From Planosporangium flavigriseum (GTDB lineage Bacteria; Actinomycetota; Actinomycetes; Mycobacteriales; Micromonosporaceae), in NCBI RefSeq assembly GCF_011947225.1, contig NZ_JAATVW010000027.1, positions 1 to 51,648 of the forward strand: a stretch of DNA of 51,648 nt, given 5' to 3'. The notes under the pieces are model-generated. The model saw only the letters and a program-made list of their open reading frames with translations, did not search any database and was not told where the DNA came from. The stretch's first letter is position 1; every line of letters begins with the position of its first letter. Positions 10,265-27,534 of the stretch are shown here, in pieces. The position numbers and the translations under genes are program-made.

Positions 10265-10904
10265 TGCGTACCGTCTCGATGCGATCAGACCGGTCCAGCT
10301 TCAGGCGTAACCGGCGGACGCAGACGTCCACGACGTTGCTGCCCGGGTCGAAGGTGAGCCCCCAGACGTCGGAGAGCAGTTCGGTGCGGCTGCACGCCTG
10401 CCCGGCGCGCCGCATCACGTGCTGGAGCAGCAGGAACTCCCGGTACGACAGCTCGACGTGGCTGCCGGCCACCTCGGCGCGGCGTAAGCGCAGGTCGAGA
10501 AGGACCGGGCCGGCGCGAAGCCACCGCGCGGCCGCGCCGGGCGCCGGTACGCGCAGCCGGGCCCGTACCCGCGCGAGCAGTTCGGCGACGGCGAACGGCT
10601 TGCCGAGGAAGTCGGACGCGCCCGCCTCCAGCACGGAGACCCGGGTGCCGATCTCGGGGACTGCCGAGAGCACGAGCACCCGCTGCTCGGGGCGTACCTC
10701 GACGAGCCGCTCCAGTACCTGGGTGCCGAGGATGTCGGGCAGCATCAGATCGAGGACGACCAGATCGAAGTCGCCCGCCAGGGCTTCGTTGAGCCCATCG
10801 TTACCGCGCGCGGCGCGTTCCACGCCGTGCCCGTCGTCCTGGAGCGCGCGGGACACAAGCCGCGCAATCCGATCGTCGTCCTCGATCACTAGAACCCGAC
10901 TCAC
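10236..10904 (-). CDS. OmpR-family response regulator
   Basis: A 222-residue two-domain regulator. The receiver domain has the acidic pocket EDDD near residue 8, phospho-acceptor Asp52 in VVLDLMLP, and Lys102 in GKPF. The C-terminal winged helix (about 125-222) shows LSYREFLLLQHVM, the recognition region SNVVDVCVRRLRLKL and the closing VRNVGYRF. It is co-transcribed with the downstream kinase. It is divergent to the giant secreted protein gene, with repeated ATGACA sites in the gap between them, so control of the cupredoxin cluster and of itself is the natural reading. The signal is unknown; copper is an inference from context. Confidence 0.95.
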   Translation of the reverse strand: MSRVLVIEDDDRIARLVSRALQDDGHGVERAARGNDGLNEALAGDFDLVVLDLMLPDILGTQVLERLVEVRPEQRVLVLSAVPEIGTRVSVLEAGASDFLGKPFAVAELLARVRARLRVPAPGAAARWLRAGPVLLDLRLRRAEVAGSHVELSYREFLLLQHVMRRAGQACSRTELLSDVWGLTFDPGSNVVDVCVRRLRLKLDRSDRIETVRNVGYRFTTD

Positions 10905-11294: not shown

Positions 11295-14200
11295 ATGTTG
11301 CGTCACCTCTCCCGGCGATGGTTGACCGTCGCGGCGACCGGCCTGTTAGGACTGGCCGGTTTCACCGTGGTGACTGCGCTTCCCGAGGTGGCCGTGGCGG
11401 CTACCACGCCCGGCAGCATCACGCTGCGGGTGGAGAGCGCCCGGACGGTCGGCCCGGCACCGGAAATTCAGAAGGGTGACAAGGTCGCCCATTACAAGTG
11501 GCTCATCACGTCCGACGACGTGGGCAACCCGCACGACGCGCTGGCGAACTGTCTGCCGCCCAGCTCCGGCGTCGCGGGCACCACCGCTGACTTCGCCGAC
11601 AAGTGCCAGTGGCCGTCCGTGCGCGCCACTCCGGGGGCGGTGCCGATCGTCGCTCAGGGCGACGAGACCAAGCTCGACGAAGGCGTCCAGCTGAACGGTC
11701 TGGAGCCCGGCAAGTACCTCATCTCGGTGACCGCCGACGGGTACAAGATCGATGGCCAGCACTTCACCGTCGTGAGTGACCAGTCCAAGCGCGTCCGCGT
11801 CACCATGCAGCCGTACCCGCTGCCGCTGGGCACCGTCCGCCTGCAGGTGTTCAACGACACCAACCCGGTCGACGGCACGTACGAGGTCGACGCCGAGAAG
11901 GGCCTGCCGGGATTCACGGCGTACCTGGCGGACGTCTTCGGACAGGTCAGCGTCGACTACTACGGCAACCCGCTGTGCACCCAGTACGTGCACACGGCGC
12001 CGGACGCCACCCACCCGAGCGGCACGATCGTCTTCGAGGGCGGCAAGCCGAAGGTCGCCCCCGGCTCGGTGGGCAAGTGCGTCAGCGACGCCGAGGGCAG
12101 AATCGTCATCCCCAACCTCGGGCCCAACCGGTACGCGGCCCAGGTGGTGGCGCCCACCGGCCAGGTGTGGGCGCAGACCACCACGCTCGAGGGTAACTTC
12201 GACTGGGACGTCTGGGTGCAGGAGGGCGACACCGGCTTCGACACCGAGCAGACGATCGGTGGCGAGCCGGTGCCGTTCGTCCACTTCGGCTTCGTCGCGC
12301 CGAAGAACCTGACGGACACGACGAAGACCGGCGAGATCAGAGGCACCGCCGTCGTCGGTCGCCCGTACATCGGCGGCGAGGGCGGCGCGACCGTCCCCGA
12401 GACCGGTGTCGCCGGCGCGAAGATCTCCGGCCCGGTCTCCCGGCCGTGGGTGGCCCTGAGCGCCCTCGGCAACGGTGACCAGATGGTCTACATGGGCCGG
12501 GGCGGGACCGACGGCAAGTACGACATCAAGAACGTGCCCGACGGCGACTACCAGCTCACGCTGTGGGACCAGCCGCAGGAGCTGATCCTGGACTCGTTCA
12601 ACGTGACCGTCCGAAACGGACAGCTGGTCGACGTCGGGACCCACATGCTCGTCGGGTGGTTCACCAACATCCATGGCACCGTGTTCATCGACTCGAACGG
12701 CAACGGCAAGCGCGATCCGGGCGAGTCCGGTGTGCCGCAGTTCCCGGTCACGGTCAAGGAGCGGGACAACTCGCTCATGGACCAGGCCACCAACTCGGTG
12801 ACCACCGACAAGAACGGCTACTACGACATCCACCAGGTGTACCCGCTGAGCAAGTGGCTCGTGCTCGAGGCGTTCAACACCCGTTACCAGACCACGGGTA
12901 TCACGTACCAGGCCGACAACGAGCCGACCCCGACGACCCTGAAGGGCGCGGCCGTCGACCTCAACTTCCTGCCGATCATCGGCCTGGGCGGCACGGTCGA
13001 CTGGGGCGTCAAGCCCTACCGAGGTGACGAGAACGGCGGCATCGCCGGCACCATCACCTACGACACCACCCGCAACGAACTCGACGCGGCCAACGCGGCC
13101 ACCGAGACGTACCAGCCGGGTGTCCCCGGAATCAAGGTGCATCTGTACGCGGTGCGCCGCGACGACAACGGCGACCCGATCCGGGACGCCAACGGTCTGG
13201 TCAAGGGGCCGGAGCTGGGCGACGCGTACACGTCCGAGACCTGGCAGGCCGGTCGCGGCTGCACGGCCCGGATGTGGAACGGCACCCCACTGACCGACCA
13301 GCAGGCGCTGTCGGACTTCGGCACGGCCGCCGACAAGATGTGCGTCGAGGCGCCGATGATGGGCGTGCAGTTCGCGCCCAGCGAGAACGATCCGACGAAC
13401 TTCGGCCAGACCGTGAACGGCAACTACGCGTTCACCGACTCGAAGCGCAACCTGTACCCGCCGGGCGACCCGCAGAACCCGGGCGACCCGAACAAGCCCG
13501 CGGGCAATCACGACCTGGCGCTGTACGCACCGCTGCCGAACGGTCAGACGCAGAAGCTGGTGCCGGACGACTACATCGTCTCGGTCGAGATTCCCGACAA
13601 CCCGGTCGGCGGCGGCAAGATGTACCAGGTCACCAGGGAAGAGGACGTCAACGTCTTCACCGGTGACGGCTACCTGCCGCAGGAGAACTTCCCGCCGTCG
13701 CCCGAACAGGCGGCCGACCAGCCGGGCCCTTACCCGGTCAAGGTTCCCGGCAGCAACCCGTCCGGCGGCACCGGCATCACCTCCGGATGCGCCGGCGCCG
13801 ACCACCCGGTGCACGTGACCAACCCGGCGTTCCTCGCCGCCGGTGGCAGCCCGTACGAAGGGCAGAACAAGCCGCTGTGCGACGCCAAGCTGGTGACGGT
13901 CCGCGCCGGCCAGACGGTCGCGCCGAACTTCAACCTGTTCACCGAGGTCCCGCTGCCCACACACTTCTGGGGCCTGACCATCAACGACCTGGGCCTGTCG
14001 CACGACAAGAAGAGCGTGGAGTACGGCGAGGCCGAGGGCCTGCCGAACGTGCCGATGGGTATCTACGACTACCGGGGCCGGCTCGTCGACACCGTGGACA
14101 CCGACTTCAACGGTTTCTACGAGGCGATCGAGCCATCGACCAGCACCTACAACTGCCCGGTGCCCGCGGGGCCGTGTCCGAACATGTACCGGTTCGTCGG

Positions 14201-16526
14201 TAACGACCCCGGCCAACCCGGGCATCTCAACAAGAGCTACAACCCGAGGTACCGCACCATCGCCACGAACTTCCAGGCGTGGCCGGGCCTGTTCACCGTG
14301 ACCGACACGGCGCCGACCCAGGTGGCGATGTCGGCGCTGGCCCCGGGCAGTACCCAGATCGGCGCGGTGCAGTGCAACCCCGCCGGCAACATCCCGCAGC
14401 TGTTTTCGGTGTCCAAGCCGTACCTTCGGCCGACCGACGTCAACCGCCAGATCACCATCAAGGGCGACTCGTTCGGCACGCTGCGTGGCACGGTCAAGGT
14501 GGCCGGCCCGCAGGGCGACGTTCCCGCGCTCGTGACCAGCTGGACGAACCGGCAGATCCAGGTGATCCTCGGGGCCCCTTTGTCGCCCACCGCGGCGACG
14601 CTGTCCATCACCACGGCGGCCGGCAAGCAGACCATCAACGGCCTGTCGCTGCAGTTCCTCGGGATCGGCCAGGGCGCCGGCACGCCGGCCGACCCGAAGC
14701 TCATCCAGGTGAACGCGCCGGCGTCGGCGCTGTCGCCGAACGAGACGAACTACCCGACGGTGCAGTCGGCCCTCGAGGCCGCGGCGGCGGCAGGCGGTGG
14801 CACCAACACCGTGGTGGTGGCGGTCTGGCCGAACAAGCCGGGCACCGACAACCCCGTCGGCGCGTACTTCGAGAACGTGGTCGTCCACTCCTCGGTGCGC
14901 CTGCAGGGTGTCGGCCCCGGTGGCCAGTACCCGGGCGGCGCGTACGTGCCGGGCTCGGTCCTCGACGGCCGCGCGTTCGCCATCGACAACCCCAGTGGCA
15001 CGGCGTGGGTGGCCCTGGTGGGCTCCCTGCAGTACGCCGGACCGACGGCGGTGCCGGACGGCGCGGTGGTCACCGTGCTGGCCAAGCAGGGACAGTTCAA
15101 CGCCGGCAACGCACCGACGATCAACGGATTCAAGATCACCGGCGGCAACCAGTCGGACTTCCCGGCCAACATCAACGAGACCACGGGCGGCATCAAGACG
15201 CCGTACGGGGCCGCGGGCGCGGTCGTGACCCAGGGCGGTGGCGTCCACCTGCACGCCGCTGACAGCTACACCCAGATCACCGACAACGTCATCCAGGGCA
15301 ACAGCGGCTCGTACGGCGGCGCCATCCGCGTCGGCACCCCGTACACCAACAGCCACAACGACAACGTGCGGATCTCCCGCAACCAGATCCGTGACAACGG
15401 CGGCACCAACCTGGCCGGCGGCATCGGGATCTTCACGGGTAGCGACAGCTACTCGATCGATCACAACTCCATCTGCGGCAACTTCTCGGCCGAGTACGGC
15501 GGCGGCATCTCGCAGTACGGACTGTCGCCGAACGGCCGGATCACCAACAACCGGGTGTACCTCAACCAGTCCTACGACGAGGCCGGCGGGATCATGATCG
15601 CCGGTGAGCTGCCGTCGGACCCGAACCAGCTCTCGGCGGGCTCCGGACCGGTGACCATCGACGCCAACTACGTCCAGGCGAATCTTTCCAACGACGACGG
15701 TGGCGGTATCCGGCTGCTGCAGGTAAACAACGCTCCGATCGCGATCACCAACAACGTCATCGCGGGCAACATCTCCACCCACGAGGGTGGGGGCCTGGCG
15801 CTCGACGACGCCACGGACGTGCGGATCGTCAACAACACGGTGATGGACAACATCACCACGGCGACCGCGGTCACGAGCACCGGCAAGCCGGCCCCGGCCG
15901 GCCTGTCCGTCGCCGAGAACAGCGTTCAGCTGCAGGTGACCCTGCCGCCGGATTCCCCGACGTTCAGCGACCCCACGCTGTTCAACAACATCTTCTGGAA
16001 CAACCGGGCGGGTAGCTGGAACGGGCTGTACGTCAGCGGCATCGGCTCGACGGACGCGCCGGCCGGCGATCCCGTCAACTACTGGGACATGGGATCGGCC
16101 GACAACCCGGCCGACCAGCTCGCGCCGACCAACTCGGTGCTGCAGACCAGCACGGGCACCACCGGGGACTCGTCCAACAAGGTCGGCGTCGACCCGCAGG
16201 TGGTCAGGCAGTTCCTCACCAGCGTCACGATCCAGTCCTCCCGGACGTTCCCCTCGTTCCGACAGGCCGTGCTCGTGGTGCAGAACGTGTCAGGCACTGA
16301 CATGGGCAACTACCACCTGCGGGGCACCAGTCCGGCGATCAACGCCGGCGCGGGATCGGTCACCGCCAACGAGGTGACCGTGAACGCTCCGGGTTGGGAC
16401 ATCGACGGCGACGGCCGTAGCTCCACCACCCCCGACATCGGGGCTGACGAGACGGCCGTGACTCCGCTAGCCCAGATAGCCGTAGCTCTGCTGGCCCGGA
16501 TATTGGGGTTCACGACAAGTAGGTGA
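11295..16526 (+). CDS. Giant secreted protein: SdrD-like beta domains, IPT/TIG-like domain, right-handed beta-helix
   Basis: A 1743-residue exported protein. The signal peptide spans about residues 1-35 (ending AVAA). The N-terminal two thirds are carboxypeptidase-regulatory/CNA-B-like beta modules; one near residue 462 has the SdrD_B calcium-loop signature DSNGNGKRDPGESG. An IPT/TIG-like module lies near 1035-1110. From about 1140 a right-handed parallel beta-helix begins. Seven turns between about 1330 and 1515 share the pattern N-x-V/I-x-x-N followed by G-G-G/A-I/L. The C-terminus ends with DIDGDGRSS and PDIGADE, common at the end of such helices. No LPXTG motif or transmembrane anchor is seen. 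It is first in the cupredoxin cluster, separated from the next gene by a perfect hairpin. It may be a scaffold, surface layer or substrate for the oxidase; its function is not known. Confidence 0.9.
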   Translation: MLRHLSRRWLTVAATGLLGLAGFTVVTALPEVAVAATTPGSITLRVESARTVGPAPEIQKGDKVAHYKWLITSDDVGNPHDALANCLPPSSGVAGTTADFADKCQWPSVRATPGAVPIVAQGDETKLDEGVQLNGLEPGKYLISVTADGYKIDGQHFTVVSDQSKRVRVTMQPYPLPLGTVRLQVFNDTNPVDGTYEVDAEKGLPGFTAYLADVFGQVSVDYYGNPLCTQYVHTAPDATHPSGTIVFEGGKPKVAPGSVGKCVSDAEGRIVIPNLGPNRYAAQVVAPTGQVWAQTTTLEGNFDWDVWVQEGDTGFDTEQTIGGEPVPFVHFGFVAPKNLTDTTKTGEIRGTAVVGRPYIGGEGGATVPETGVAGAKISGPVSRPWVALSALGNGDQMVYMGRGGTDGKYDIKNVPDGDYQLTLWDQPQELILDSFNVTVRNGQLVDVGTHMLVGWFTNIHGTVFIDSNGNGKRDPGESGVPQFPVTVKERDNSLMDQATNSVTTDKNGYYDIHQVYPLSKWLVLEAFNTRYQTTGITYQADNEPTPTTLKGAAVDLNFLPIIGLGGTVDWGVKPYRGDENGGIAGTITYDTTRNELDAANAATETYQPGVPGIKVHLYAVRRDDNGDPIRDANGLVKGPELGDAYTSETWQAGRGCTARMWNGTPLTDQQALSDFGTAADKMCVEAPMMGVQFAPSENDPTNFGQTVNGNYAFTDSKRNLYPPGDPQNPGDPNKPAGNHDLALYAPLPNGQTQKLVPDDYIVSVEIPDNPVGGGKMYQVTREEDVNVFTGDGYLPQENFPPSPEQAADQPGPYPVKVPGSNPSGGTGITSGCAGADHPVHVTNPAFLAAGGSPYEGQNKPLCDAKLVTVRAGQTVAPNFNLFTEVPLPTHFWGLTINDLGLSHDKKSVEYGEAEGLPNVPMGIYDYRGRLVDTVDTDFNGFYEAIEPSTSTYNCPVPAGPCPNMYRFVGNDPGQPGHLNKSYNPRYRTIATNFQAWPGLFTVTDTAPTQVAMSALAPGSTQIGAVQCNPAGNIPQLFSVSKPYLRPTDVNRQITIKGDSFGTLRGTVKVAGPQGDVPALVTSWTNRQIQVILGAPLSPTAATLSITTAAGKQTINGLSLQFLGIGQGAGTPADPKLIQVNAPASALSPNETNYPTVQSALEAAAAAGGGTNTVVVAVWPNKPGTDNPVGAYFENVVVHSSVRLQGVGPGGQYPGGAYVPGSVLDGRAFAIDNPSGTAWVALVGSLQYAGPTAVPDGAVVTVLAKQGQFNAGNAPTINGFKITGGNQSDFPANINETTGGIKTPYGAAGAVVTQGGGVHLHAADSYTQITDNVIQGNSGSYGGAIRVGTPYTNSHNDNVRISRNQIRDNGGTNLAGGIGIFTGSDSYSIDHNSICGNFSAEYGGGISQYGLSPNGRITNNRVYLNQSYDEAGGIMIAGELPSDPNQLSAGSGPVTIDANYVQANLSNDDGGGIRLLQVNNAPIAITNNVIAGNISTHEGGGLALDDATDVRIVNNTVMDNITTATAVTSTGKPAPAGLSVAENSVQLQVTLPPDSPTFSDPTLFNNIFWNNRAGSWNGLYVSGIGSTDAPAGDPVNYWDMGSADNPADQLAPTNSVLQTSTGTTGDSSNKVGVDPQVVRQFLTSVTIQSSRTFPSFRQAVLVVQNVSGTDMGNYHLRGTSPAINAGAGSVTANEVTVNAPGWDIDGDGRSSTTPDIGADETAVTPLAQIAVALLARILGFTTSR

Positions 16527-16665: not shown

Positions 16666-17964
16666 TTGTCCGACCGTGCAACCCCACGCGGTCTCAGCCG
16701 CCGGGCCATCCTGGCCGGCGTGGCCGGCGCCGCCGGCTGGGCGATACTGCCCGCCGGCAGTTCCGTCGGCGCATCCGCGCGGCCCCGAGGGCTGGCGGTG
16801 CCCGCCGAGGTACCGAACCCGTCCACCGAGATCCATCTCGCCGGCACCGACGGCTGGGTGTCGATGCCGGGCGACGCGCCGGCGATCCCGCCGTTCTGGC
16901 CCGACCCGCTCGCGCGGGAGAACTCCAACCTGTACGTCTTCGGGTTCCGCGACGTCACCGGGATGTCGCCGGACGAGGTCACCGCGCAGCGCGGGAAGGC
17001 GCAGATCTCGGCGCCGATGCTGAGCTTCGACCAGGAGACCGACGTCAAGATCACCCTGACCAACCTGGGCCTGTCGATGCGGCCCGACCTGACCGACGGG
17101 CACACCGTTCACTGGCACGGCTTCCAGAACGCGATCCCGCTGTTCGACGGCGTCCCGGAACTGTCCATCTCGGTGCCGATCGGCCGGGACTTCACGTACT
17201 TCTACCGCCCGCACGACCCGGGCACGTACATGTACCACTGCCACTTCGAGGACGTCGAGCACGTACAGATGGGCATGACGGGCATGCTGTTCGTGCGCCC
17301 GGTCCAGAACGACGGCACCCACGGCGTGCCGGCCGGCACGTACGCCTACAACTGTGGCGACGGCTCGACCCGGTACGACCGGGAGTTCGCGTTCATGATG
17401 ACTGAGATCTGGGCCGAGTCGCACTACCGCGACGCGCACATCCAGGTCAACGACTGGACCGACTTCGAGCCCTCGTTCTTCGCGCTCAACGGTCGGGTGT
17501 ACCCGGACACGGTCAAGCCCAACGCGCCCGACTTCGACCCGGTGAAGGCGGGAGCGGACGCGCGGTACGACCCGCGCCTGCAGTACCAGCCCATCTCGTC
17601 GCTGATCACCTGCAACAGCGGTGAGCGGGTGCTGCTCCGGCTGGCGAACCTGGGTTACCGCAACCACGCGGTGACCGTCGACGGGATCGATCTGACGGTC
17701 GTCGGCAAGGACGCCGGCCTGCTGCGCGGGCGCGACGGCACGCCCAACTACCAGGTCACGAACACCGTCGAGATCGGACCGGGGGAGAGCCGTGACGTCA
17801 TCTTCGAAGCGCCGGCCGTCGACCGGCCGACCACCTTCCTGCTCTACGACCGCGACTACGTCTCGCTGACCAACAGCGGCGGCCGCGGCTACGGCGGGCA
17901 GATGACCGAGATCCGGGTGTACCCGACCGGGACGCTCGCCCCGCAGGCGGGTGCGAACACATGA
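16666..17964 (+). CDS. Tat-exported two-domain cupredoxin protein with type-1 copper site (subunit A)
   Basis: A 432-residue multicopper-oxidase-type protein. The TTG start at 16666 follows AAGGAGG with 5-nt spacing; the longer upstream frame lacks this. The N-terminus has a twin-arginine signal (LSRRAILAG) and an Ala/Gly core. Domain 1 has a full ligand set: His146-x-x-His149-x-His151-Gly and His191-Cys192-His193, then His199 and Met204. His146, Cys192, His199 and Met204 form a type-1 site; the other four His are half of a trinuclear site. Domain 2 is degenerate: the HxHG position reads NHAVTVDG, and the C-terminal HCH position (near LLYDRDYVS) has no His or Cys. Alone it cannot complete a trinuclear centre. 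The stop overlaps the next start region (ATGA). Confidence 0.92.
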   Translation: MSDRATPRGLSRRAILAGVAGAAGWAILPAGSSVGASARPRGLAVPAEVPNPSTEIHLAGTDGWVSMPGDAPAIPPFWPDPLARENSNLYVFGFRDVTGMSPDEVTAQRGKAQISAPMLSFDQETDVKITLTNLGLSMRPDLTDGHTVHWHGFQNAIPLFDGVPELSISVPIGRDFTYFYRPHDPGTYMYHCHFEDVEHVQMGMTGMLFVRPVQNDGTHGVPAGTYAYNCGDGSTRYDREFAFMMTEIWAESHYRDAHIQVNDWTDFEPSFFALNGRVYPDTVKPNAPDFDPVKAGADARYDPRLQYQPISSLITCNSGERVLLRLANLGYRNHAVTVDGIDLTVVGKDAGLLRGRDGTPNYQVTNTVEIGPGESRDVIFEAPAVDRPTTFLLYDRDYVSLTNSGGRGYGGQMTEIRVYPTGTLAPQAGANT

Positions 17965-17975
17965 GGAGACTGAAC

Positions 17976-19277
17976 ATGCCATCCCTCAACCGCGCCCTGC
18001 GGCGTGTGGCCCCGTTCGCGCTGGTCGCGGCGATCATCGGAGTGCTGGTCGTCCCGGGGCCGCAGAGTTCGGCGGCCGCGCCGACCGACGGACTGGAGTG
18101 CGAGACCTCGCCGAGCAACAGTTTCTCGCTCACCGCGAGCGGCGGCTATATCTCCACCCCGGACGGCAACTCCATTTACATGTGGAGCTACGGCGACACC
18201 GGCGGGTCCTTCCAGTTTCCCGGGCCGACGCTCTGCGTGGAGTCCGGCGCGAACGTGACGGTGGTGCTGCACAACGCGCTGTCCGAGCCGACCTCGATCA
18301 TGTTCCCGGGACAGAACAAGGTCCTCGCGGGCGGCAAGCCCGCCCAGCCCGAGAACGACGCGAACGGCAACCTGTCGTCGCTGACGACGACGGCGGCGGC
18401 CAACAACGGCTCGGTGACCTACACGTTCGTCGCCGGCGCGCCCGGCACGTACCTGTACCAGTCCGGCACCGACGTGCAGAAGCAGCAGCAGATGGGCCTG
18501 TTCGGCGCCCTCGTCGTACGCACCAAGGGCCACCCCGACCAGGAGAACGGCCGGGCCGACTCGACGTTCGACCCGGCGCACGAGTACCTGTACATGCTCA
18601 GCGAGGTCGACCCCGACGCCCACCTCGCCGTGGAGCGTAAGCGTACGTACAACTGGAACAACTACACGCCGCGCTACTTCATGATCAATGGCCGGAGCAT
18701 GCCGGACACCATCGCTCCCAACCACGCGGAGTGGCTGCCCAACCAGCCGTACGGCGCGCTGATCCACATCAGGCCGTACGACGAGCAGACCAACCCGAGG
18801 CCGGCGCTCATCCGGTACCTCAACGCCGGCACCACCAACTACCCGTTCCACCCGCACGGAAGCGACGAGCAGCTCATCGCGCGCGACGGGCACCCGGCGC
18901 AGGCACCGGACGGCAAGGACCTGTCGTACTCGAACTTCCTCATCGACCCGGCGCCCGGCCAGACCGTCGACACGCTGATGACCTGGAAGGACGCCGAGCA
19001 CTGGAACTCCGCGACCAACCCGGTCCCGGTGCCGCTGCCGCAGTTGCAGGACCAGATCGTCGGCCCCGGTACCGAGACCTGGTTCAGCGAGAGCCCGTAC
19101 CTGGGGGAGAGCGACGCGCAGCTGCCGCCCGGCGTGGTCCAGAACAACCAGTGCGGTGAGTACTACCACGTGGCGCACAGCCATGCACTGCAGCAGGCGA
19201 CCAACTTCGGCGCGAGCTTCGGCGGAATGATGACGCTCATCCGCATCGATCCGCCCGCCGGCTGCCCAGGTCAATGA
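17976..19277 (+). CDS. Secreted two-domain cupredoxin protein with complementary trinuclear half-site (subunit B)
   Basis: A 433-residue exported paralogue of the preceding protein. The start at the ATG at 17976 follows GAGGAG at 7 nt; an ATG at 17961 overlapping the upstream stop is an alternative. The signal peptide (PFALVAAIIGVLVVPG) runs to about residue 35. Domain 1 has lost its ligands: the HxHG position reads SIMFPGQ and the HCH position reads YLYQSGTDVQ. Domain 2 keeps His292-Pro-His294-Gly and His401-Ser402-His403, the four histidines a trinuclear site needs from a partner domain. The Ser in place of Cys and the lack of an upstream type-1 His mean it has no type-1 copper. It is the ligand-for-ligand complement of subunit A and probably acts with it. 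Its stop overlaps an ATG of the next gene. Confidence 0.92.
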   Translation: MPSLNRALRRVAPFALVAAIIGVLVVPGPQSSAAAPTDGLECETSPSNSFSLTASGGYISTPDGNSIYMWSYGDTGGSFQFPGPTLCVESGANVTVVLHNALSEPTSIMFPGQNKVLAGGKPAQPENDANGNLSSLTTTAAANNGSVTYTFVAGAPGTYLYQSGTDVQKQQQMGLFGALVVRTKGHPDQENGRADSTFDPAHEYLYMLSEVDPDAHLAVERKRTYNWNNYTPRYFMINGRSMPDTIAPNHAEWLPNQPYGALIHIRPYDEQTNPRPALIRYLNAGTTNYPFHPHGSDEQLIARDGHPAQAPDGKDLSYSNFLIDPAPGQTVDTLMTWKDAEHWNSATNPVPVPLPQLQDQIVGPGTETWFSESPYLGESDAQLPPGVVQNNQCGEYYHVAHSHALQQATNFGASFGGMMTLIRIDPPAGCPGQ

Positions 19278-19291
19278 CGCCGAAGGGACCC

Positions 19292-22200
19292 ATGACGATG
19301 AATCTTCTTCCAGTTGCGCTGCGCGGTACGGCGTTCGCCGCCGTGACGACGCTGGCGTTCGCCGGGCCGGGTGCGGTCGCCTACGCGGCCGCGCCGGCAA
19401 CGACTCCACGCCTTGCCACAGTGGAAGCACATGCCGCACCGCCAGCGGTGGCCTTCCACGCCGGGCGGCCGGTGGTGTTCCCCACGCCGCCGGCCGCCCG
19501 CCCGGCACTGCCCGCGCCGAAGCTGAGTGGAACGCTGCAGTCGAACGCCTGCGTGAACGCGGTGTGTGACCTGTGGGCCCGAGCGGGCACCACCACGGTC
19601 GCGAGCCGGGCGATCCCGATCTGGGGCTTCTCCAGCTCGGCGGATCCGACCGTCGCGGTGACGGCGCCCGGCCCGGTGCTCGTCGTCAACGAGGGCGACG
19701 ACGTCACCATCAACGTCCACAACGAACTCGCCGGCCAGAACCTGTCGCTGGCGATCCCGTCGATGACCGGGCTCGTCCCGGACACCACGGGCGTCGCGAC
19801 GGGCGCCGTGGCGACGTACACGTTCACGGCGGGCCGGCCCGGCACGTACCTGTACGAGGCCGGGCACACCCCGGACGGCGGCCGGCAGGCCGCGATGGGC
19901 CTCGTCGGCGCGCTGGTCGTGAAGGCCGCGGACTCGGGCGGCCGGCCGTCGGAGGACGGCACCGCCGGCACCGGCTACGACGACGAGGCGGTGATGGTGC
20001 TGACGGAGATCGACCCGGCCCTCAACACTCTCGCCGACCCGTTCACCTTCGACATGCGCAGCTATGCGCCGAAGTACCGGCTGATCAACGGCAAGGCGTT
20101 CCCGGAGACCGACCCGGTCGCCACCGACGTCAACCGGACGGTCCTGCTGCGCTACGTCAACGCCGGCCTGCTGGCCCACCCGATGACGACGCTCGGCCTC
20201 GACCAGTCGGTCATCGCGCAGGACACGCGGAACACCGCCGCCCCGGAGGGCGCGGTCACCCTGCCGCTCGCACCGGGCAAGACGGCCGACGCCCTGGTCA
20301 CCATGCCCAAGGACCAGGACGGGCGCCGGTTCATGGTGTTCGAGCCCGGCGGCCAACTCAACAACAACGGCGACAAGGTGCCCGCGACGCCCGGCGGCAG
20401 CCCGCAGCAGGCGTTCGGCGGGATGATGACCTACCTGGACACCAACCCGATCGTGGAGAGCGGTGACCACGTCGGGCCGATCGCCACGAAGGTCGCCGCG
20501 TCGCCGAACCCGGCCTCGGCGCTGCAGGACATCACGGTGACCGCCACCTTCACCGACGATGCCAACGGCGGCTCCACCATCGACAAGGCCGAGGTCGTCA
20601 TCGACGACCTGAGCGTCGCCCCGGGTGAGGGCATTCCGTTCGCCTTGCCGCCAGCCCCCGCGTCCGCCGTCTCCGACGTGCCGGCGACCATCGACAGCAA
20701 GAAGTACCTGCAGACGTTGACGCAGGGCCGGCACATGCTGTGGGTACGCGCCCACGACGTCGCCGGCAACTGGGGCGTGGTCAACTCGACGACCGTGAAC
20801 CTCGCGGTCACCGGAGCGGCGACCACCGGCCTGGCCGTCACCCCGAACCCGACCTCGGGCCAGCGTGACCTGGCTGTGAGCGCCACCGGCGACGACAGCG
20901 CCGTCGGCGGCACGGTCACGGACGCCGAGTACTTCATCGACCGGGACCCCAACGCCCCGCCCACGAACGGCACCGGCACGAAGCTCACCCTCGCCCAGTC
21001 CGGCGCGAAGGTGACCGCCGAGACGGGGACGATTCCGGCGACCACCGTGGCCGCGCTCGCCGAGGGTAAGCACACGGTCTCGGTGCACACCCTGGACGCG
21101 CAGGGACTGTGGGGGCCGATGGCGGAGGTCGCCCTGGTGGTCGACCGTACCGGGCCGACCCTGACCAAGGGCGAGATCCTGCCCGACCTCGTCACCGGCA
21201 GTACGACCGGTTCGCCGTCCGACGCCGGTTACCTGCGGGTCAACGCGGACTTCACCGACCCGGTCACCCCGCCGAGCACCGGCGTCAACACCTCCGTCGC
21301 CGCGGTCGAGGGCTTCATCGACACGGCCGGAACCAACGGCACCGGGATCGCGTTCCAGTCCCTCGACGGCACGTTCAACGCGGCGACCGAGAGCACGTAC
21401 GGGCTCATCCCGCTCACCCAGTTCACCCAGCTCGCCGACGGTCCGCACCAGATCCAGGTGCACGCACAGGACGCGGCCGGCAACTGGGGGCCGCTCGTGT
21501 CACTGCCGTTCACGCTGGACCGCAACGGACCGGTCGTGTCGGCGCTGTCCGGCATTCTCAACGCCACGGGCGGCGTGGACCTGACCGCAAACGCAACCGA
21601 CGCGGTCAGCGCCGTCGCGGCGGCCGAGTGGTTCGAGAACGCGGACCCGGGTCTGGGCAAGGGCAAGCCGGTGACGGTGACCTCGACCGGCGCGACCACG
21701 GCCGGACTGTCGGCCACGATCACCGGCCTGGCCACCGGCGACCACACCATCGCGGTGCGGACCAGGGACGCCAACGGCAACTGGGGCAAGGCGGTGACCA
21801 CCACCGTCACGGTCAACCAGGCGGCGCTGATCTTCGCCAACAACTTCAACGCCGGTGACGCCAACGCCTGGTCGCAGCGCACCGGCACGGTGCGGGTCGC
21901 CGCGTCGCCGGCGTTCAGCAACTCGCCGGCGCTCACCGTCACCGGACGCACCGCGGTGTACGTAACGGACACCCGCCCGACGGCGGAGACGAACCTGCAC
22001 GCGCAGTTCGGGTTCGCCGCGGGCACGTACACCACCAAGGGCACGGTCGTGGACCTGTTCCAGGCGCGTACCTCGGCCGGCACGTCGGTGCTCACCGTCC
22101 AGTACCAGTCGACGGCCACCGACATCAGCCAGCTACGGGTCGGCGTCCAGACCAGCACCGGGTGGAAGTACTCGGCCTGGTCGACGATTCCGCGCACGGC

Positions 22201-22399
22201 CGTGACGGTCAGGGTCGACTGGACATCGGCCACCTCCGGCAAGGCCACGCTGAAGGTCGAGGGTGCCGTCGTCGGCACGGCCACCGGCAACACCTCGGCG
22301 TACAAGATCGAGACCGACGCGCTGGGTGTGGTCGCGGCCAACGGTTCCGGCGCGGTCGCCGGCGCCGCCGCGATCGACAACTTCACCTCCAACCGTTGA
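19292..22399 (+). CDS. Secreted ligand-free cupredoxin protein with Ig-like repeats (subunit C)
   Basis: A 1035-residue exported protein. The start is taken at 19292 after GAAGGGA; ATGs at 19274 (overlapping the upstream stop) and 19298 are alternatives. The signal peptide is followed by a Pro/Ala linker and two cupredoxin domains (about 85-385) aligning with the preceding two proteins: GTYLYEAG matches GTYLYQSG and GTYMYHCH, and QAAMGLVGALVV is conserved. Neither domain has an HxHG or HxH pair, so no trinuclear ligands remain. From about 390 come at least three Ig-like repeats marked by ASPNPAS, VTPNPTS and repeated AGNWG / NGNWG ends, then a C-terminal lectin-like (concanavalin-fold) beta domain from about 835. 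It is probably a structural or wall-/substrate-binding subunit. Confidence 0.88.
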   Translation: MTMNLLPVALRGTAFAAVTTLAFAGPGAVAYAAAPATTPRLATVEAHAAPPAVAFHAGRPVVFPTPPAARPALPAPKLSGTLQSNACVNAVCDLWARAGTTTVASRAIPIWGFSSSADPTVAVTAPGPVLVVNEGDDVTINVHNELAGQNLSLAIPSMTGLVPDTTGVATGAVATYTFTAGRPGTYLYEAGHTPDGGRQAAMGLVGALVVKAADSGGRPSEDGTAGTGYDDEAVMVLTEIDPALNTLADPFTFDMRSYAPKYRLINGKAFPETDPVATDVNRTVLLRYVNAGLLAHPMTTLGLDQSVIAQDTRNTAAPEGAVTLPLAPGKTADALVTMPKDQDGRRFMVFEPGGQLNNNGDKVPATPGGSPQQAFGGMMTYLDTNPIVESGDHVGPIATKVAASPNPASALQDITVTATFTDDANGGSTIDKAEVVIDDLSVAPGEGIPFALPPAPASAVSDVPATIDSKKYLQTLTQGRHMLWVRAHDVAGNWGVVNSTTVNLAVTGAATTGLAVTPNPTSGQRDLAVSATGDDSAVGGTVTDAEYFIDRDPNAPPTNGTGTKLTLAQSGAKVTAETGTIPATTVAALAEGKHTVSVHTLDAQGLWGPMAEVALVVDRTGPTLTKGEILPDLVTGSTTGSPSDAGYLRVNADFTDPVTPPSTGVNTSVAAVEGFIDTAGTNGTGIAFQSLDGTFNAATESTYGLIPLTQFTQLADGPHQIQVHAQDAAGNWGPLVSLPFTLDRNGPVVSALSGILNATGGVDLTANATDAVSAVAAAEWFENADPGLGKGKPVTVTSTGATTAGLSATITGLATGDHTIAVRTRDANGNWGKAVTTTVTVNQAALIFANNFNAGDANAWSQRTGTVRVAASPAFSNSPALTVTGRTAVYVTDTRPTAETNLHAQFGFAAGTYTTKGTVVDLFQARTSAGTSVLTVQYQSTATDISQLRVGVQTSTGWKYSAWSTIPRTAVTVRVDWTSATSGKATLKVEGAVVGTATGNTSAYKIETDALGVVAANGSGAVAGAAAIDNFTSNR

Positions 22400-22465: not shown

Positions 22466-22939
22466 ATGACCCTCGTGACCCACTGGTCCACGGTGATCCG
22501 GCGACAGGCTGGCCGGATCTTGATCGTGCTGCTCGCCCTCGGCTTCATCGCCGCGGTCGGGTGGCGCTTCGCGGGTAGCGCCGACGCCAAACCCAACTAC
22601 GCCGTTCCGCAGGACGGCAGGCTGGAGAGCAAGCTCGGGGTGCGTATCACCCAGGCGGCTCTGGTCGGCGACGGCGGCCTCGTCGAGATCCGCTACACCG
22701 TCCTCGACAACCAGCGCGCGTCGGCGTTCCAGAACGACGTCAAGCACCCGCCGCTGCTCAAGAACGAGAAGAGCGGCAAGCAGGCCTGGCGGGCGGCGCT
22801 CATGAAGCAGGGCCACGAACTGCGGCCGGGCCAGACCTACTACATCCTGTACCTCAACAACCACAACGCGATCAAGCGCGGCGACAAGATCGAAATCTCG
22901 ACCGGGTCGGGCAAGTTGGCCCACGTACCGGTGCGATGA
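22466..22939 (+). CDS. N-terminally anchored extracytoplasmic protein in the copper cluster
   Basis: A 157-residue protein starting at the ATG at 22466 after GAGGAG. One hydrophobic segment (ILIVLLALGFIAAVGWRF, about residues 18-35) anchors or exports it. The extracytoplasmic domain is beta-rich (VRITQAALVGDGGLVEIRYTV) with scattered His (KHPPLL, KQGHEL, NNHNAI) and no Cys. No family was recognised. The stop overlaps the CopC-CopD start by ATGA, which suggests coupled synthesis and a role in copper delivery or sensing at the membrane. That role is inference from position only. Confidence 0.8.
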   Translation: MTLVTHWSTVIRRQAGRILIVLLALGFIAAVGWRFAGSADAKPNYAVPQDGRLESKLGVRITQAALVGDGGLVEIRYTVLDNQRASAFQNDVKHPPLLKNEKSGKQAWRAALMKQGHELRPGQTYYILYLNNHNAIKRGDKIEISTGSGKLAHVPVR

Positions 22940-24807
22940 CCATGCGACGCTTCTTCTACGGCTGGTTGGCGGCCGTCACCGCCGGAGCGCTCCTGCCCCT
23001 GGCGATGACGCCCACCGCGGCCAGCGCGCACGCGTACCTGGCCCGCAGCACCCCCGGCGACGGGACGGTCCTCGACCGCGCCCCGCAGACGCTGACGCTC
23101 AGCTTCACCGAGAGGGTGGAACTCTCGGCGACCCACGTCGACATCGTTGACGGCGACGGGCGGCACTACACGCCGACCTCCGTCGCGCTGCGCCAGGAAT
23201 CGACCGACGGCGCGGCCCTCGCAAGCGGTACCGAGGCGGCGGCGGACGTCGTCGTCGGCCTGCCGAAGCTGCCGGCCAACATGTACCACATCATGTGGAG
23301 CACGCTGTCCAGCGACGACCTGCACACCACCAGCGGCAACCTGGTCATCGGCGTCCAGCGGACAGTGCCGGCGGCAGCCCGGGCCGCCGGGCCCGGCGGC
23401 CCGGTGCCGCTGGAGACCGCACTGCGCGGACTCGGGCTGGTCGGCCTGTCGGTGCTCCTCGGTGGCGCGACCCTCGCGTTGCTGCTCGCCGCGCGGACGC
23501 CCGACCTGCGCCGGTGGCTGCTCGACGTCGCGGCGTCCGGCGGGGCGCTGGCTCTGGTCAGCACCCCGGTGCAACTGCTGTCCCAGGTGTACGCGGGGGC
23601 CGGCGGCGTTGGTCGGCTGCTTGCCCGCGAAGCGCTCAGCGGCCGGTGGCTCGCGCGCGAACTCGGTCTGCTCGCGTTGACCGTCGCCGTGCTGCGGGCC
23701 CGGACGACCCTCAGGTCGGCAACGGTGCCGAGGCCCGGTGTGCTCGTCCTCGGCTGCGCCGGGGCGCTCGCCGCGGCCGGTGGTACCGCGCTGCTCGGCC
23801 ACCAGGCCGGCACCGCACTCCTCCTCGCGACGGTGGTGCACGTCCTCGCCGCGGGCGCGTGGGCCGGCAGTGTCGTCGCGGCGGCGCTCGCCCTCGTACC
23901 CGTCCTGAGGTCGGGACCTGAACGGGGCGCCCAGGTGGCGGCGCTGCTGCGCACGTTCGCGGCGATCGCCGTCGTCGCGGTCGTGTCCCTGACCATCAGT
24001 GGGCTGCTGCTGACCGGCGTCCAGGTCGCAACGCTCGACGCGCTGCTCACCACGCCGTACGGACTGGTGCTGATCGCCAAGATTGCCGCGATGGTGCTGG
24101 CCGGGCTGCTGGGCCTGCGGACGGCGCGCCGGTTGCGCGGCGGGCAGGGCGCGGTGCCGTTGCGTGGCCTGGTCACCGAGGCGACCGCGCTGGTCGTCGC
24201 CCTCGGGCTGGCGGGTGCGCTCGCGTCGGCCGGCCCGGCGCGGGGGCCGCGCTTCGAGGCGAGCGCCGGGGTGAAGATCACGCCGCAGGTCAGCGGCCAG
24301 GTAGCCGACCTGGTCGACACGGTCACCGTCCGGCCGAACCTTCCCGGACGCAATGTCGTCACCATCACCGTCGCCGACACCCGACGGCCGGCACTCGCCC
24401 CGATCGGCGGCGTCTCGGTGGTCCTGCGGTCACCGGACGGGGTGCAGACGGTGCGCCCGGTGACCCGGGCCGCGGACGGCTCGTGGATGCTGGCGACCGA
24501 CGACATCCGGACGCCGGGCGCGTGGAAGATCTCCGTGACCGTCCTGCGCAACGGGCTCGCCCCGGTCACCGACGTGCACGACTGGGGCGTCGCGGGTGCG
24601 GGCACCGGACCGAACGCTCTTGTGTCGTCGGCGCCGCTGAAGCCGGCCGTGGCGGCGCTCGCGGCCGTGCTCGCGGTTGGGTCGCTGGCCGGCGCGGCGC
24701 TCTGGTACCGCCGTCGGATCAGGGCGCCGCGTGCCCGAGATCGCGTTTGCCCTCCGGTGACCGGGGCAGGATTCCCGGTTGAGCCGAAGGAGGCTGTGCG
24801 GACATGA
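22936..24807 (+). CDS. CopC-CopD fusion copper-resistance/import protein with extra C-terminal domain
   Basis: A 623-residue membrane protein. After a signal peptide, mature CopC begins with His32 (AHAYLARSTP), the usual N-terminal copper ligand. The second ligand loop is SSDDLH, with Asp128 and His130. The CopD part (about 150-440) has around eight transmembrane segments. A further extracytoplasmic beta domain (about 440-560, FixH/YtkA-like: GRNVVTITVAD, PGAWKISVTV) and a final transmembrane helix follow. CopC-CopD fusions are usual in Gram-positives and are thought to bind Cu(II) and move copper across the membrane. Here the protein would serve copper loading of, or protection around, the exported cupredoxin proteins. 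The gene is coupled by overlaps to both neighbours. Confidence 0.92.
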   Translation: MTMRRFFYGWLAAVTAGALLPLAMTPTAASAHAYLARSTPGDGTVLDRAPQTLTLSFTERVELSATHVDIVDGDGRHYTPTSVALRQESTDGAALASGTEAAADVVVGLPKLPANMYHIMWSTLSSDDLHTTSGNLVIGVQRTVPAAARAAGPGGPVPLETALRGLGLVGLSVLLGGATLALLLAARTPDLRRWLLDVAASGGALALVSTPVQLLSQVYAGAGGVGRLLAREALSGRWLARELGLLALTVAVLRARTTLRSATVPRPGVLVLGCAGALAAAGGTALLGHQAGTALLLATVVHVLAAGAWAGSVVAAALALVPVLRSGPERGAQVAALLRTFAAIAVVAVVSLTISGLLLTGVQVATLDALLTTPYGLVLIAKIAAMVLAGLLGLRTARRLRGGQGAVPLRGLVTEATALVVALGLAGALASAGPARGPRFEASAGVKITPQVSGQVADLVDTVTVRPNLPGRNVVTITVADTRRPALAPIGGVSVVLRSPDGVQTVRPVTRAADGSWMLATDDIRTPGAWKISVTVLRNGLAPVTDVHDWGVAGAGTGPNALVSSAPLKPAVAALAAVLAVGSLAGAALWYRRRIRAPRARDRVCPPVTGAGFPVEPKEAVRT

Positions 24808-25150: not shown

Positions 25151-25555
25151 ATGCGTACTCGACTCCGTCTCGCGGGCATCTCGGTAGCCATCGTCGTCGG
25201 CCTGGCCGTCGTCGGCGGGGTGGCGCTCGCCGCCGAAGACAACCCGTCCCGGGGCGGTACGCCGTCTCCGGCCGCCTCGACCGCGGACGACAAGGGTGGC
25301 CTGCGCGGCGGGAACGGCGCCGACGACCCGGCCGGCCATGACGTGAACGACGACAAGGGCGGCCGGCGGGCCGGCGGGTCGGACGATCCCGCCGGTCACG
25401 ACGCGGGCGACGACAAGGGCGGCCAGCGTGCGGGCGACGACAAGGGCGGCCGGCGGGCCGGCGGGTCGGACGATCCCGCCGGTCACGACGCGGGCGACGA
25501 CAAGGGCGGCCAGCGTGCGGGCGACGACAAGGGCGGCCAGCGCAGCGGTCGCTGA
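25151..25555 (+). CDS. Secreted DDKGG-repeat protein
   Basis: A 134-residue exported protein. The signal peptide (LAGISVAIVVGLAVVGGVALA) is cleaved near residue 27. The mature part is hydrophilic and highly charged, built of DDKGG-(R/Q)R-AG and SDDPAGHDAG blocks. Two complete 29-residue units are identical at DNA level, and a partial third unit and a diverged first unit flank them. No Cys or aromatic residues occur in the repeat, so it is probably disordered. The Asp/His-rich blocks might bind cations. It ends 3 bases from the convergent kinase gene. No family was recognised; it lies next to the copper cluster but has its own leader. Confidence 0.7.
   Translation: MRTRLRLAGISVAIVVGLAVVGGVALAAEDNPSRGGTPSPAASTADDKGGLRGGNGADDPAGHDVNDDKGGRRAGGSDDPAGHDAGDDKGGQRAGDDKGGRRAGGSDDPAGHDAGDDKGGQRAGDDKGGQRSGR
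25349..25522 (+). repeat. Perfect 87-bp tandem repeat, two copies
   Basis: 25349-25435 and 25436-25522 appear identical base for base and in frame (29 codons each); a partial third unit starts at 25523. The absence of synonymous differences points to recent duplication or ongoing slippage, so copy number may vary between strains. Confidence 0.85.
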
Positions 25556-25558
25556 TGG

Positions 25559-26848
25559 CTAGGGCGTACCGGGTGGCGGCGGACCGAACTCGACGGTGAC
25601 GGTCGCGCCGCCACCCGGCGTCTGACCGAGGGCCAGCGAACCGCCGGACGCAGCTGCCACCCGGCGCACGATGTCCAGGCCGAGACCGGTCGAGCCGCTG
25701 CCGCTGTGCCCACGCTGCAGGGCCAGCGGACCCTGTAGGCCCGGCCCGTTGTCGGCGACGACGAGCTCGGCCCCGCCGTGCTGTCCCGGCGCGAGGTAGA
25801 TCCACATCCCGCAGCCTTCGGGCGTGTGCGCGAAGACGTTGCCCAGCAGCGCGTCCAGGCAGGCCGCGAGGTCGTCCGCGCCAGCCCGTACCGGCAGGGG
25901 GTCCGGGGGAAGGTCAATCTCGACCGGCCGCTGCTCGTCGGCGGCCAGGGCCGACCAGAACGCCACCCGCTCGGCGACCACCTCCCGGGCCGAGCAGGTG
26001 GCCACGATGTCGTGGCGGACCGGCCGGCGGGCCGTCCGGATGATCGCGTCGACCGTACGCTGGACGGCGTCGAGATCGGCGGTGATGCGCTCGCGGTCGT
26101 CCGGGTCGCGCAGCGACTCCGCGTCGATCCGGAGCGCGGTCAGCGGAGTGCGCAGCCGGTGGGACAGGTCGACGACGTTCTCGCGCTCTCTCGCCAGCAG
26201 CTCGTCGATCCGCCCGGCAAGAAGGTTGAGCCCGGCGCTGACCTGGTGTACCTCGGGCGGACCACTGAGTTCGGCGCGGGCGGCGAGGTCGCCCTGTGCG
26301 ATGCGGTGGGAGACCTCGGCGACCGCGGTCAACGGCCGGGTGAGGTTGCGGGCCAGTTGGTGCGCGACCGCGACGCTGACGATCAGCAGGCCTAGCCCCA
26401 GCACACAGAGGACGAGCCAGGCGCGCCCGACGCCGCGCTGTAGTTCGGCGTCGGAGACGAAGGTACGGATCACCGCCGTGCCGTCGCTGAGCCCGGAGAC
26501 GGCCACCAGGACCTCGCGGCCACCGGTGGCCTCCGCAGTGAGGCTGCGCCCGGTCGAGGCGAGCGTCACCGCGTCCGAGCGCGGCGCGGCGGCTCCGATT
26601 ACGGTGCCGTCGGGCAGGAACACCGTCAGCCGGTGCGGGTTGGCGGCGTTGGTACGGGTGACGGCGAGTTCGAGGGTCCTGCTGTCAACCGTGGACACCA
26701 GGGGGGCGAGCGCCTGGAGTTCGACGATGGCGCTACTGACGGCGCGGTCGGCGGCGGTCGAGCGGACCAGCAGGGCGAGCGGCACCAGGAAGGCGACCAG
26801 CACCAGCGAGGTCGTCGCCGCGACCAGCAGGATGATGCGCGTCCTCAT
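25559..26848 (-). CDS. Sensor histidine kinase (partner of the 26845 regulator)
   Basis: A 429-residue kinase of the classical two-transmembrane type. The first segment is at about 5-29 and the second at about 143-163, enclosing an extracellular sensor domain of about 110 residues. HAMP follows (about 164-216), then HisKA with His230 in DLSHRLRTP. HATPase_c has the N-box LLGNVFAHT, VADNGPGL and GSTGLGLDIV. The start is the ATG at 26848, which overlaps the regulator stop as ATGA; the longer frame upstream is a shadow. Organisation and sequence style resemble the actinobacterial CseC/AfsQ2 class. The signal is unknown. Confidence 0.94.
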   Translation of the reverse strand: MRTRIILLVAATTSLVLVAFLVPLALLVRSTAADRAVSSAIVELQALAPLVSTVDSRTLELAVTRTNAANPHRLTVFLPDGTVIGAAAPRSDAVTLASTGRSLTAEATGGREVLVAVSGLSDGTAVIRTFVSDAELQRGVGRAWLVLCVLGLGLLIVSVAVAHQLARNLTRPLTAVAEVSHRIAQGDLAARAELSGPPEVHQVSAGLNLLAGRIDELLARERENVVDLSHRLRTPLTALRIDAESLRDPDDRERITADLDAVQRTVDAIIRTARRPVRHDIVATCSAREVVAERVAFWSALAADEQRPVEIDLPPDPLPVRAGADDLAACLDALLGNVFAHTPEGCGMWIYLAPGQHGGAELVVADNGPGLQGPLALQRGHSGSGSTGLGLDIVRRVAAASGGSLALGQTPGGGATVTVEFGPPPPGTP

Positions 26849-27534
26849 GCCGGCGGTACCGTCAGTTTGACCCCGACGCCGCGGAGGGTGTGCAGGTAGC
26901 GCGGCTGGGTGGCGGTCTCGCCGAGCTTGCGGCGCAGCCACGACAGGTGCACGTCGACGGTCTTGTCGGCGCCGCCGAACGGCAGGTGCCATACCTCCGC
27001 CAGCAGTTCGCGCTTGGTGACCACCGTGCCCGGCCGCGCGGCGAGGTAGCCGAGCAGGTCGAACTCGCGCGGGGTCAGCTCCAGCGGGACACCGGCGAGG
27101 GACGCCTCCCGGGCCGCCGGGTCCACCCGCAGGTCGCCCACGACCAACGTGGCGGGCGGGTCGCCTCCCTCGGGGCCGGAGCGCCGCAGGACGGCCCGGA
27201 TCCGTGCGTCGAGTTGAGCCGGTCCGAACGGCTTGACCAGGTAGTCGTCGGCGCCACGGTTCAGGATGTCGACCATGCCGCCTTCGTCGTCGCGCGCGGT
27301 GGCGACGATGACCGGCACCTTGCTCACCGACCGCAGCATCCGCAGCGCCTCCCGACCGTCCACGTCGGGCAGGCCGAGGTCGAGAACCACGAGGTCAACC
27401 GGGGCGTTAAGGACGTGCTGCAACCCTGCCATCGCTGTCGGCGCGCTGGACACGACATGGCCGAGATCCGTGAGCGCGCGGATCAACGCGCGCCGGATCT
27501 CGGCATCATCTTCGACCAGGAGTAACTGGGCCAC
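26845..27534 (-). CDS. OmpR-family response regulator
   Basis: A 229-residue regulator. The receiver has EDD near residue 8, Asp52 in VVLDLGLP and Lys101 in LVKPF. The winged-helix DNA-binding domain (about 130-229) has LTPREFDLLGYLA and KTVDVHLSWLRRKL. It precedes and overlaps its kinase and is divergent to the anchored protein gene at 27635, an arrangement like cseA next to cseBC. The 100-bp divergent gap has an AT-richer core with TAAG-TGT-CTTA and TAAC-CTCTC-GTTA inverted repeats (27583-27609) that could be its binding site. Confidence 0.95.
   Translation of the reverse strand: MAQLLLVEDDAEIRRALIRALTDLGHVVSSAPTAMAGLQHVLNAPVDLVVLDLGLPDVDGREALRMLRSVSKVPVIVATARDDEGGMVDILNRGADDYLVKPFGPAQLDARIRAVLRRSGPEGGDPPATLVVGDLRVDPAAREASLAGVPLELTPREFDLLGYLAARPGTVVTKRELLAEVWHLPFGGADKTVDVHLSWLRRKLGETATQPRYLHTLRGVGVKLTVPPA

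Follow-up and report, generated by a model that had tools for sequence, protein, structure and literature searches.

A candidate heterotrimeric multicopper oxidase with its copper ligands divided between two paralogous two-domain subunits

Can three chains, each lacking part of the copper ligand set of a multicopper oxidase, together form one enzyme? The question is raised by three adjacent genes, A, B and C, in a 51,648-nucleotide stretch of DNA from Planosporangium flavigriseum (contig NZ_JAATVW010000027.1, positions 1 to 51,648; hereafter the window). Trinuclear-site histidines number four in A, four in B and none in C, and the complete set is found in no single chain. We consider it probable, at roughly 0.72, that the three products make up an exported multicopper oxidase, an obligate heterotrimer of paralogous two-domain subunits arising from a triplicated type-C gene and keeping one active site of three. 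The features on which this reading draws are given below.

9185 to 10264, minus strand: histidine kinase, transcribed away from U; matched, anywhere in the locus, in 22 of the 37 further loci
10236 to 10904, minus strand: response regulator, transcribed away from U; matched, anywhere in the locus, in 23 of the 37 further loci
11295 to 16526, plus strand: gene U, 1743-aa protein with SdrD_B-like, carboxypeptidase-regulatory-like and weak NosD-type beta-helix matches
16666 to 17964, plus strand: gene A, two-domain cupredoxin subunit (open reading frame, Pfam and motif checks)
17101 to 17121, plus strand: A motif HTVHWHG, with H146 type-1 and H149 and H151 trinuclear; invariant in 37 of 37 rows
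17236 to 17277, plus strand: A motif HCHFEDVEHVQMGM, with H191 and H193 trinuclear and C192, H199 and M204 type-1; H191 in 36 of 37 rows, the others in 37 of 37
17961 to 19277, plus strand: gene B, two-domain cupredoxin subunit with a ligand-free domain 1 (open reading frame, Pfam and motif checks)
18849 to 18860, plus strand: B motif HPHG (H292, H294); 36 of 36 rows covering the stretch
19176 to 19184, plus strand: B motif HSH (H401, H403); 34 of 34 rows covering the stretch
19274 to 22399, plus strand: gene C, two-domain cupredoxin subunit free of ligands, Ig-like repeats in its C-terminal part (open reading frame, Pfam and profile)
19526 to 20470, plus strand: both cupredoxin domains of C (profile match)
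22466 to 22939, plus strand: gene D, 157-aa conserved small cassette protein (conservation across loci)
22936 to 24807, plus strand: CopC-CopD fusion, probably serving copper delivery, with matches in 16 of the 37 further loci

Division of the copper ligands among A, B and C

Each of the three chains has two cupredoxin domains, as recognised by Pfam and profile in A and B and by a profile match over the solved structure 3g5w in C. Gene A (Pfam Cu-oxidase_3, Cu-oxidase_2 and Cu-oxidase) begins with TTG at 16666, which aligns with the starts of several homologues, and longer GTG starts are possible upstream. Its product carries a twin-arginine-like signal, the RR pair of which is invariant in the 17 A proteins compared and absent in two from Burkholderiaceae. 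For gene B (Cu-oxidase_3 and Cu-oxidase_2), an alternative ATG at 17976 lies beyond the stop of A and is preceded by AGGAG; B may therefore start there instead of at the ATGA overlap at 17961-17964. The original prediction had counted on overlaps between the genes to help assembly: the B/C ATGA at 19274-19277 is present, but that between A and B is possibly not the start of B. Its residue numbers are correct given starts at 16666 for A and 17976 for B.

Gene C encodes 1041 aa, with a Cu-oxidase_3 match in the N-terminal part, cupredoxin domains at about residues 85-399 and Ig-like repeats in the rest. In three relatives (L066, L067 and L069) the C frame is just 304-323 aa, and B there is 649-655 aa; the two cupredoxin domains are thus the constant part of C. 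The description of C as a ligand-free two-domain cupredoxin gene holds for both domains, but these occupy only about 85-399 of its 1041 residues. Over L066, L067, L068 and L069, B measures 649-670 aa; in the three with the short C the extra length is on B instead.

Residues of A and B were assigned to the type-1 and trinuclear sites by the usual oxidase motifs, which we take to apply here. On this assignment, A domain 1 would provide the type-1 copper ligands and four trinuclear histidines, half of the trinuclear set, and B domain 2 would provide the other four. Type-1 ligands are found in the N-terminal domain of A only, and B and C are without them. Conservation was counted over 37 rows for A and 38 for B, in each case with that of the window, after removal of seven duplicate loci (L035, L036, L072, L074, L076, L077 and L079). 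Two B rows were left out for all four histidines, L061 with only the end of B present and L062 with B broken by 100 N, and two more, L037 and L060, for H401 and H403 because of contig ends. The count for C comprised 32 rows, without L022, which was too short, and without the two Burkholderiaceae, in which the frame scores highest as U.

Seven of the eight A ligands were invariant in all 37 A proteins; the single exception, at H191, is a Leu in a metagenome-assembled genome (L019). The four B histidines were present in every row covering them (36/36 for H292 and H294, 34/34 for H401 and H403), with HNH replacing HSH in L058 and L059. At a threshold of 97%, only about 14% of the columns of A and B are invariant, and the ligand positions are all fixed bar H191. 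The Paraburkholderia copies are just 33% (A) and 36% (B) identical to those of the window and have the same division of ligands, which for Burkholderiaceae was read in two plasmid loci (L040 and L041). No HxH occurs in the cupredoxin part of C in any of the 32 rows. A conserved hidden ligand set was searched for after A domain 1 and before B domain 2, and none was found: one isolated HxH occurs in each of 4 of 37 A rows (L033, L067, L068 and L069), a single HxH in 2 of 36 B rows (L040 and L041), and all of these lie outside the ligand stretches. The proposed split between A domain 1 and B domain 2, with C free of ligands, was thereby confirmed in its frames and motifs and found to be conserved across relatives, and the expectation that no second HxH set is concealed in A domain 2 or B domain 1 was borne out. 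The description of A domain 2 as ligand-free is right in that it has no conserved HxH, but a lone histidine (H334) is kept in 32 of 37 A rows.

The division of ligands exceeds what chance would give, since the ligand positions are fixed while some 14% of A and B columns are invariant, and since two intact two-domain small laccases, each with the full set in one gene, are encoded on another contig of the same genome (L086). Taken together, the four histidines each of A and B, complementary and fixed in relatives, uphold the claim that neither chain alone supplies the site and support a division under which neither A nor B would be able to furnish a trinuclear site by itself. Acidic residues flank the type-1 Cys of A (E195 and D196 in 35/37, E198 in 37/37), a weak hint that the substrate may be a metal.

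Co-inheritance of A and B and the order of the cassette

A scan of genome contigs found 11 loci, in Dactylosporangium (a metagenome-assembled genome), Planosporangium, Paractinoplanes, six Micromonospora, Amycolatopsis and an actinomycete metagenome-assembled genome. Among whole genomes, B-type matches were present in 17 of 300 from the same family, 6 of 296 from the class and 3 of 396 from the phylum, the own genome being counted in each. Nearly all loci were found with B as the query, and their completeness is partly a matter of selection; searches seeded with A and with U are free of that. Seeding with A gave 18 of 300 family genomes and 6 of 296 class genomes, and B was also found in 17 of those 18 and in all 6. 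In the exception, G029, the contig stops 147 bases past A, and a full B was not found elsewhere in the genome. The expectation that A does not occur without B thus met no convincing counter-case. U matches were found in seven class genomes, six being those with A and B and one a fragmentary genome with U at a contig end. (G029, as locus L085, and G465 are not among the 37 further loci.)

Among the matches listed, 8 of 72,556 plasmid records contain adjacent close homologues of A and B, six from Paraburkholderia and two from Cupriavidus metallidurans, and U matches occur in the same eight. A set of 23 viral stretches fitting a pattern included no relatives. Burkholderiaceae were sampled via plasmid records only, and other phyla via the plasmid and viral collections only. 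Within this sampling, the sequences support co-inheritance of A and B. Genome G052 has three divergent copies of the whole cassette (L030, L031 and L032).

Gene order in the 37 further loci was read with one profile each for U, A, B, C and D. In 28 of these the order is U-A-B-C-D on one strand, counting L062, whose U is matched with 42 bits where the contig ends and whose B contains a run of 100 N. In seven others (L019, L022, L025, L029, L037, L060 and L061) contig ends cut the cassette short, and the genes that remain keep this order; the U region of L022 is moreover spread across three frames. The other two, from Burkholderiaceae, read A-B-(C+U), with C as the N-terminus of a 2698- or 2723-aa chain and U as the remainder (C 85-88 bits beside U 412-433 bits). 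A D homologue follows the Burkholderiaceae cassette, as a profile match in L040 and, by BLASTP in Paraburkholderia, at 33% identity over 36 residues (E 3e-6). A and B adjoin in every locus containing both, and no single-chain fusion of A with B or of B with C occurs in the 37 further loci, where C-U is the sole fusion. All three genes of the predicted set indeed lie in one cassette, but the cassette also includes the genes for the giant, putatively exported protein U and the small protein D.

Several neighbours of the cassette and its homologues were recorded. Near the Paraburkholderia cassette (L042:1-6202 and L042:12184-12990) there are gspE/F/G, a LuxR-type response regulator, SCO1/SenC and a weak LolA-like match, which suggests dedicated copper loading and secretion. 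In the window, a 134-aa open reading frame with tandem DDKGGRRAGGSDDPAGHDAG-like repeats and no Pfam or NCBIfam match (25151-25555) sits between the CopC-CopD fusion and a second two-component system (25559-27534, minus strand). Among the matches listed, plasmid proteins annotated as DUF4396 match B or C (L092:2747-4891; H118-H120, H122, H133 and H136); they come from plasmids of Deinococcus, Afipia, Bradyrhizobium, Rhodopseudomonas, Variovorax and Rhodanobacter, and are possibly oxidases fused to a DUF4396 domain.

Paralogy, proposed assembly and alternatives

Profile-profile alignments connected C with B over 240 columns, B with A over 283 and C with A over 282. Maximum-likelihood analysis of 34 sequences gave a tree in which each of A, B and C formed one side of a branch (support 100/100, 96/92 and 100/97) and B and C were sisters (100/99); the branch separating A, B and C from seven other oxidases had a support of 92/88, which was not starred. 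Because the Paraburkholderia copies fall inside each of the A, B and C clades, the triplication, on this tree, predates the separation of the actinobacterial copies from those of Burkholderiaceae, be it by descent or by transfer.

The best solved match by profile was 2zwn for A and for B, and 3g5w followed by 2zwn for C, the C profile covering both 3g5w domains (E 2.9e-19). These two structures, which we take to be homotrimeric type-C oxidases, have their HxxHxHG and HCH stretches in the first domain. When aligned to 2zwn, A domain 1 and B domain 2 coincide with its ligand stretches; for HSH in B that alignment is very weak. None of the NCBIfam oxidase models reached its cut-off for A, B or C. 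Structure predictions gave a mean pLDDT of 38.7 for B and 49.4 for the cupredoxin part of C, from alignments of 12 and 10 close sequences, values too low for the models to count as structural evidence.

Two-domain oxidases are described, in passages of PMC13151041, as trimers in which the trinuclear site is common to two protomers, formed in a type-B example where domain 1 of a monomer meets domain 2 of its neighbour; type C is described there as having the type-1 copper in the N-terminal domain. By applying this trimer geometry, we infer that A domain 1 pairs with B domain 2. A gene for a two-domain oxidase that formed homotrimers and bound type-1 copper in domain 1 would have been triplicated and the copies specialised, one of three possible interface sites surviving; the ligands of A, B and C would permit exactly one. 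The active site would be composed of A domain 1, with type-1 copper and four histidines, and B domain 2, with four histidines, and the interfaces of B domain 1 with C domain 2 and of C domain 1 with A domain 2 would be dead. Electrons taken up by the type-1 copper of A would reach O2 at the trinuclear cluster that A and B share; candidate substrates are Mn(II), Fe(II), Cu(I) and phenols. C would close the six-domain ring and bind no copper, and the presence of a third two-domain paralogue, as a pseudo-threefold six-domain ring needs, supports this arrangement. U, and probably D, would be part of the same assembly. The A:B:C assembly itself, its stoichiometry, its oxidase activity and the export of the whole are deduced from the genes.

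The place of C in the ring is the weakest part of this proposal, because C is the most diverged subunit (5% invariant columns against 14% in A and B). Could A and B form the active oxidase alone, as a heterodimer or an A/B ring, with C as a scaffold or anchor together with U? The divergence of C and its want of ligands would suit such a role, as would its large extra regions in the window and its fusion to U in Burkholderiaceae. We nevertheless judge this unlikely: wherever the loci cover C it keeps both cupredoxin domains, even when these make up nearly all of a 304-323 aa chain, and its closest solved structures, 3g5w and 2zwn, are those expected of a ring member.

The fixed ligands of A and B speak against two further explanations. 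If A were a type-1 (blue) protein for electron transfer and B a copper protein with a mononuclear site, each would have a chemically plausible partial site of its own and there would be no trinuclear site. The complementary halves, H149 and H193 in A and the two HxH in B, would then be unneeded, yet they are fixed in 37 of 37 A proteins and in all B rows covering them, and A and B are neighbours wherever both occur; we hold such separate roles to be very improbable. A heteromeric copper nitrite reductase appears less credible again. Nitrite reductases are likewise two-domain copper proteins, are frequent among the profile matches, score well with the A, B and C profiles and provide the second-best solved match for B. 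However, copper nitrite reductases have type-1 and type-2 sites only and no trinuclear set. The additional H149 and H193 of A make a full oxidase set with the four ligand histidines of B, and the NCBIfam nitrite reductase model gave A 33 bits against a cut-off of 296. The class was rejected for the cassette, the four ligand histidines in B domain 2 and the HxH and HCH of A being contrary to it.

Comparison with known oxidases and implications

The proposed heterotrimer resembles the type-C two-domain oxidases 2zwn and 3g5w in having two cupredoxin domains per chain, N-terminal type-1 ligands and, as proposed here, a trinuclear site between protomers. It differs in that each chain there holds a complete set, whereas here none does and one cassette encodes three chains that are paralogous but different. 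The type-B small laccases (SLAC), two of which are encoded in the same genome, share the two-domain fold but have the type-1 motif in domain 2 and a full set per chain, and fall on the outgroup side of the tree.

Among six-domain proteins, ceruloplasmin, hephaestin and coagulation factor VIII combine six cupredoxin domains with one of three possible trinuclear sites, as the proposed heterotrimer would; theirs is one chain, whereas here there would be three, with type-1 copper in the first domain of the repeat. According to passages of PMC3600357, the ceruloplasmin kind has type-1 copper in domains 2, 4 and 6 (2 and 6 in factor VIII) and its trinuclear site between domains 1 and 6. The original description of the locus as a dissected ceruloplasmin is therefore apt as an analogy but not as a statement of descent: the likeness of A, B and C is to two-domain oxidases whose first domain carries the type-1 copper. 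MnxG and the six-domain oxidases of Leptothrix, Nitrosomonas and Geobacter are, like the proposed complex, bacterial, with one trinuclear site per six domains; unlike it, they are single chains, and they were set apart from A, B and C by published description, not by sequence. In the same passages of PMC3600357, bacterial six-domain oxidases bind type-1 copper in their second domain and form the trinuclear site where domains 2 and 3 meet. The cassette lacks the even-numbered position that this account gives for the type-1 copper of six-domain oxidases, its own ligands lying in A domain 1. MnxG is described in PMC5622069 as working with accessory proteins as MnxE3F3G. No relatives of MofA or MnxG were recognised among the matches listed in plasmids (queries A, B, C, U and the Paraburkholderia A and B). 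Six cupredoxin domains on one chain did not turn up in the 37 further loci, where no frame exceeded 200 bits with any two of the five cassette profiles.

A search of the open-access literature found no heteromeric multicopper oxidase with a divided site. Nor do the passages found on C. metallidurans describe such a complex; four multicopper oxidases are listed there, and A may be among them. The complex would be, as far as the open-access literature goes, the first multicopper oxidase with an active site common to two different gene products.

A published scheme for six-domain blue copper proteins, outlined in passages of PMC3600357, has a two-domain protein triplicated, with sites lost afterwards. 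Tentatively, and with less than even confidence, we suggest that A:B:C may be a natural unfused intermediate between a homotrimeric two-domain and a single-chain six-domain oxidase, with two of three sites lost, and that with U (and D) it may form a large exported metal-oxidising machine of Actinomycetota and Burkholderiaceae. A conserved three-gene enzyme retaining one site of three would show site loss to be possible without fusion, and in it each of the six domains would be separately changeable or removable. Collectively, these observations draw attention to an unstudied assembly of soil bacteria, among them the widely used laboratory strain Cupriavidus metallidurans CH34.
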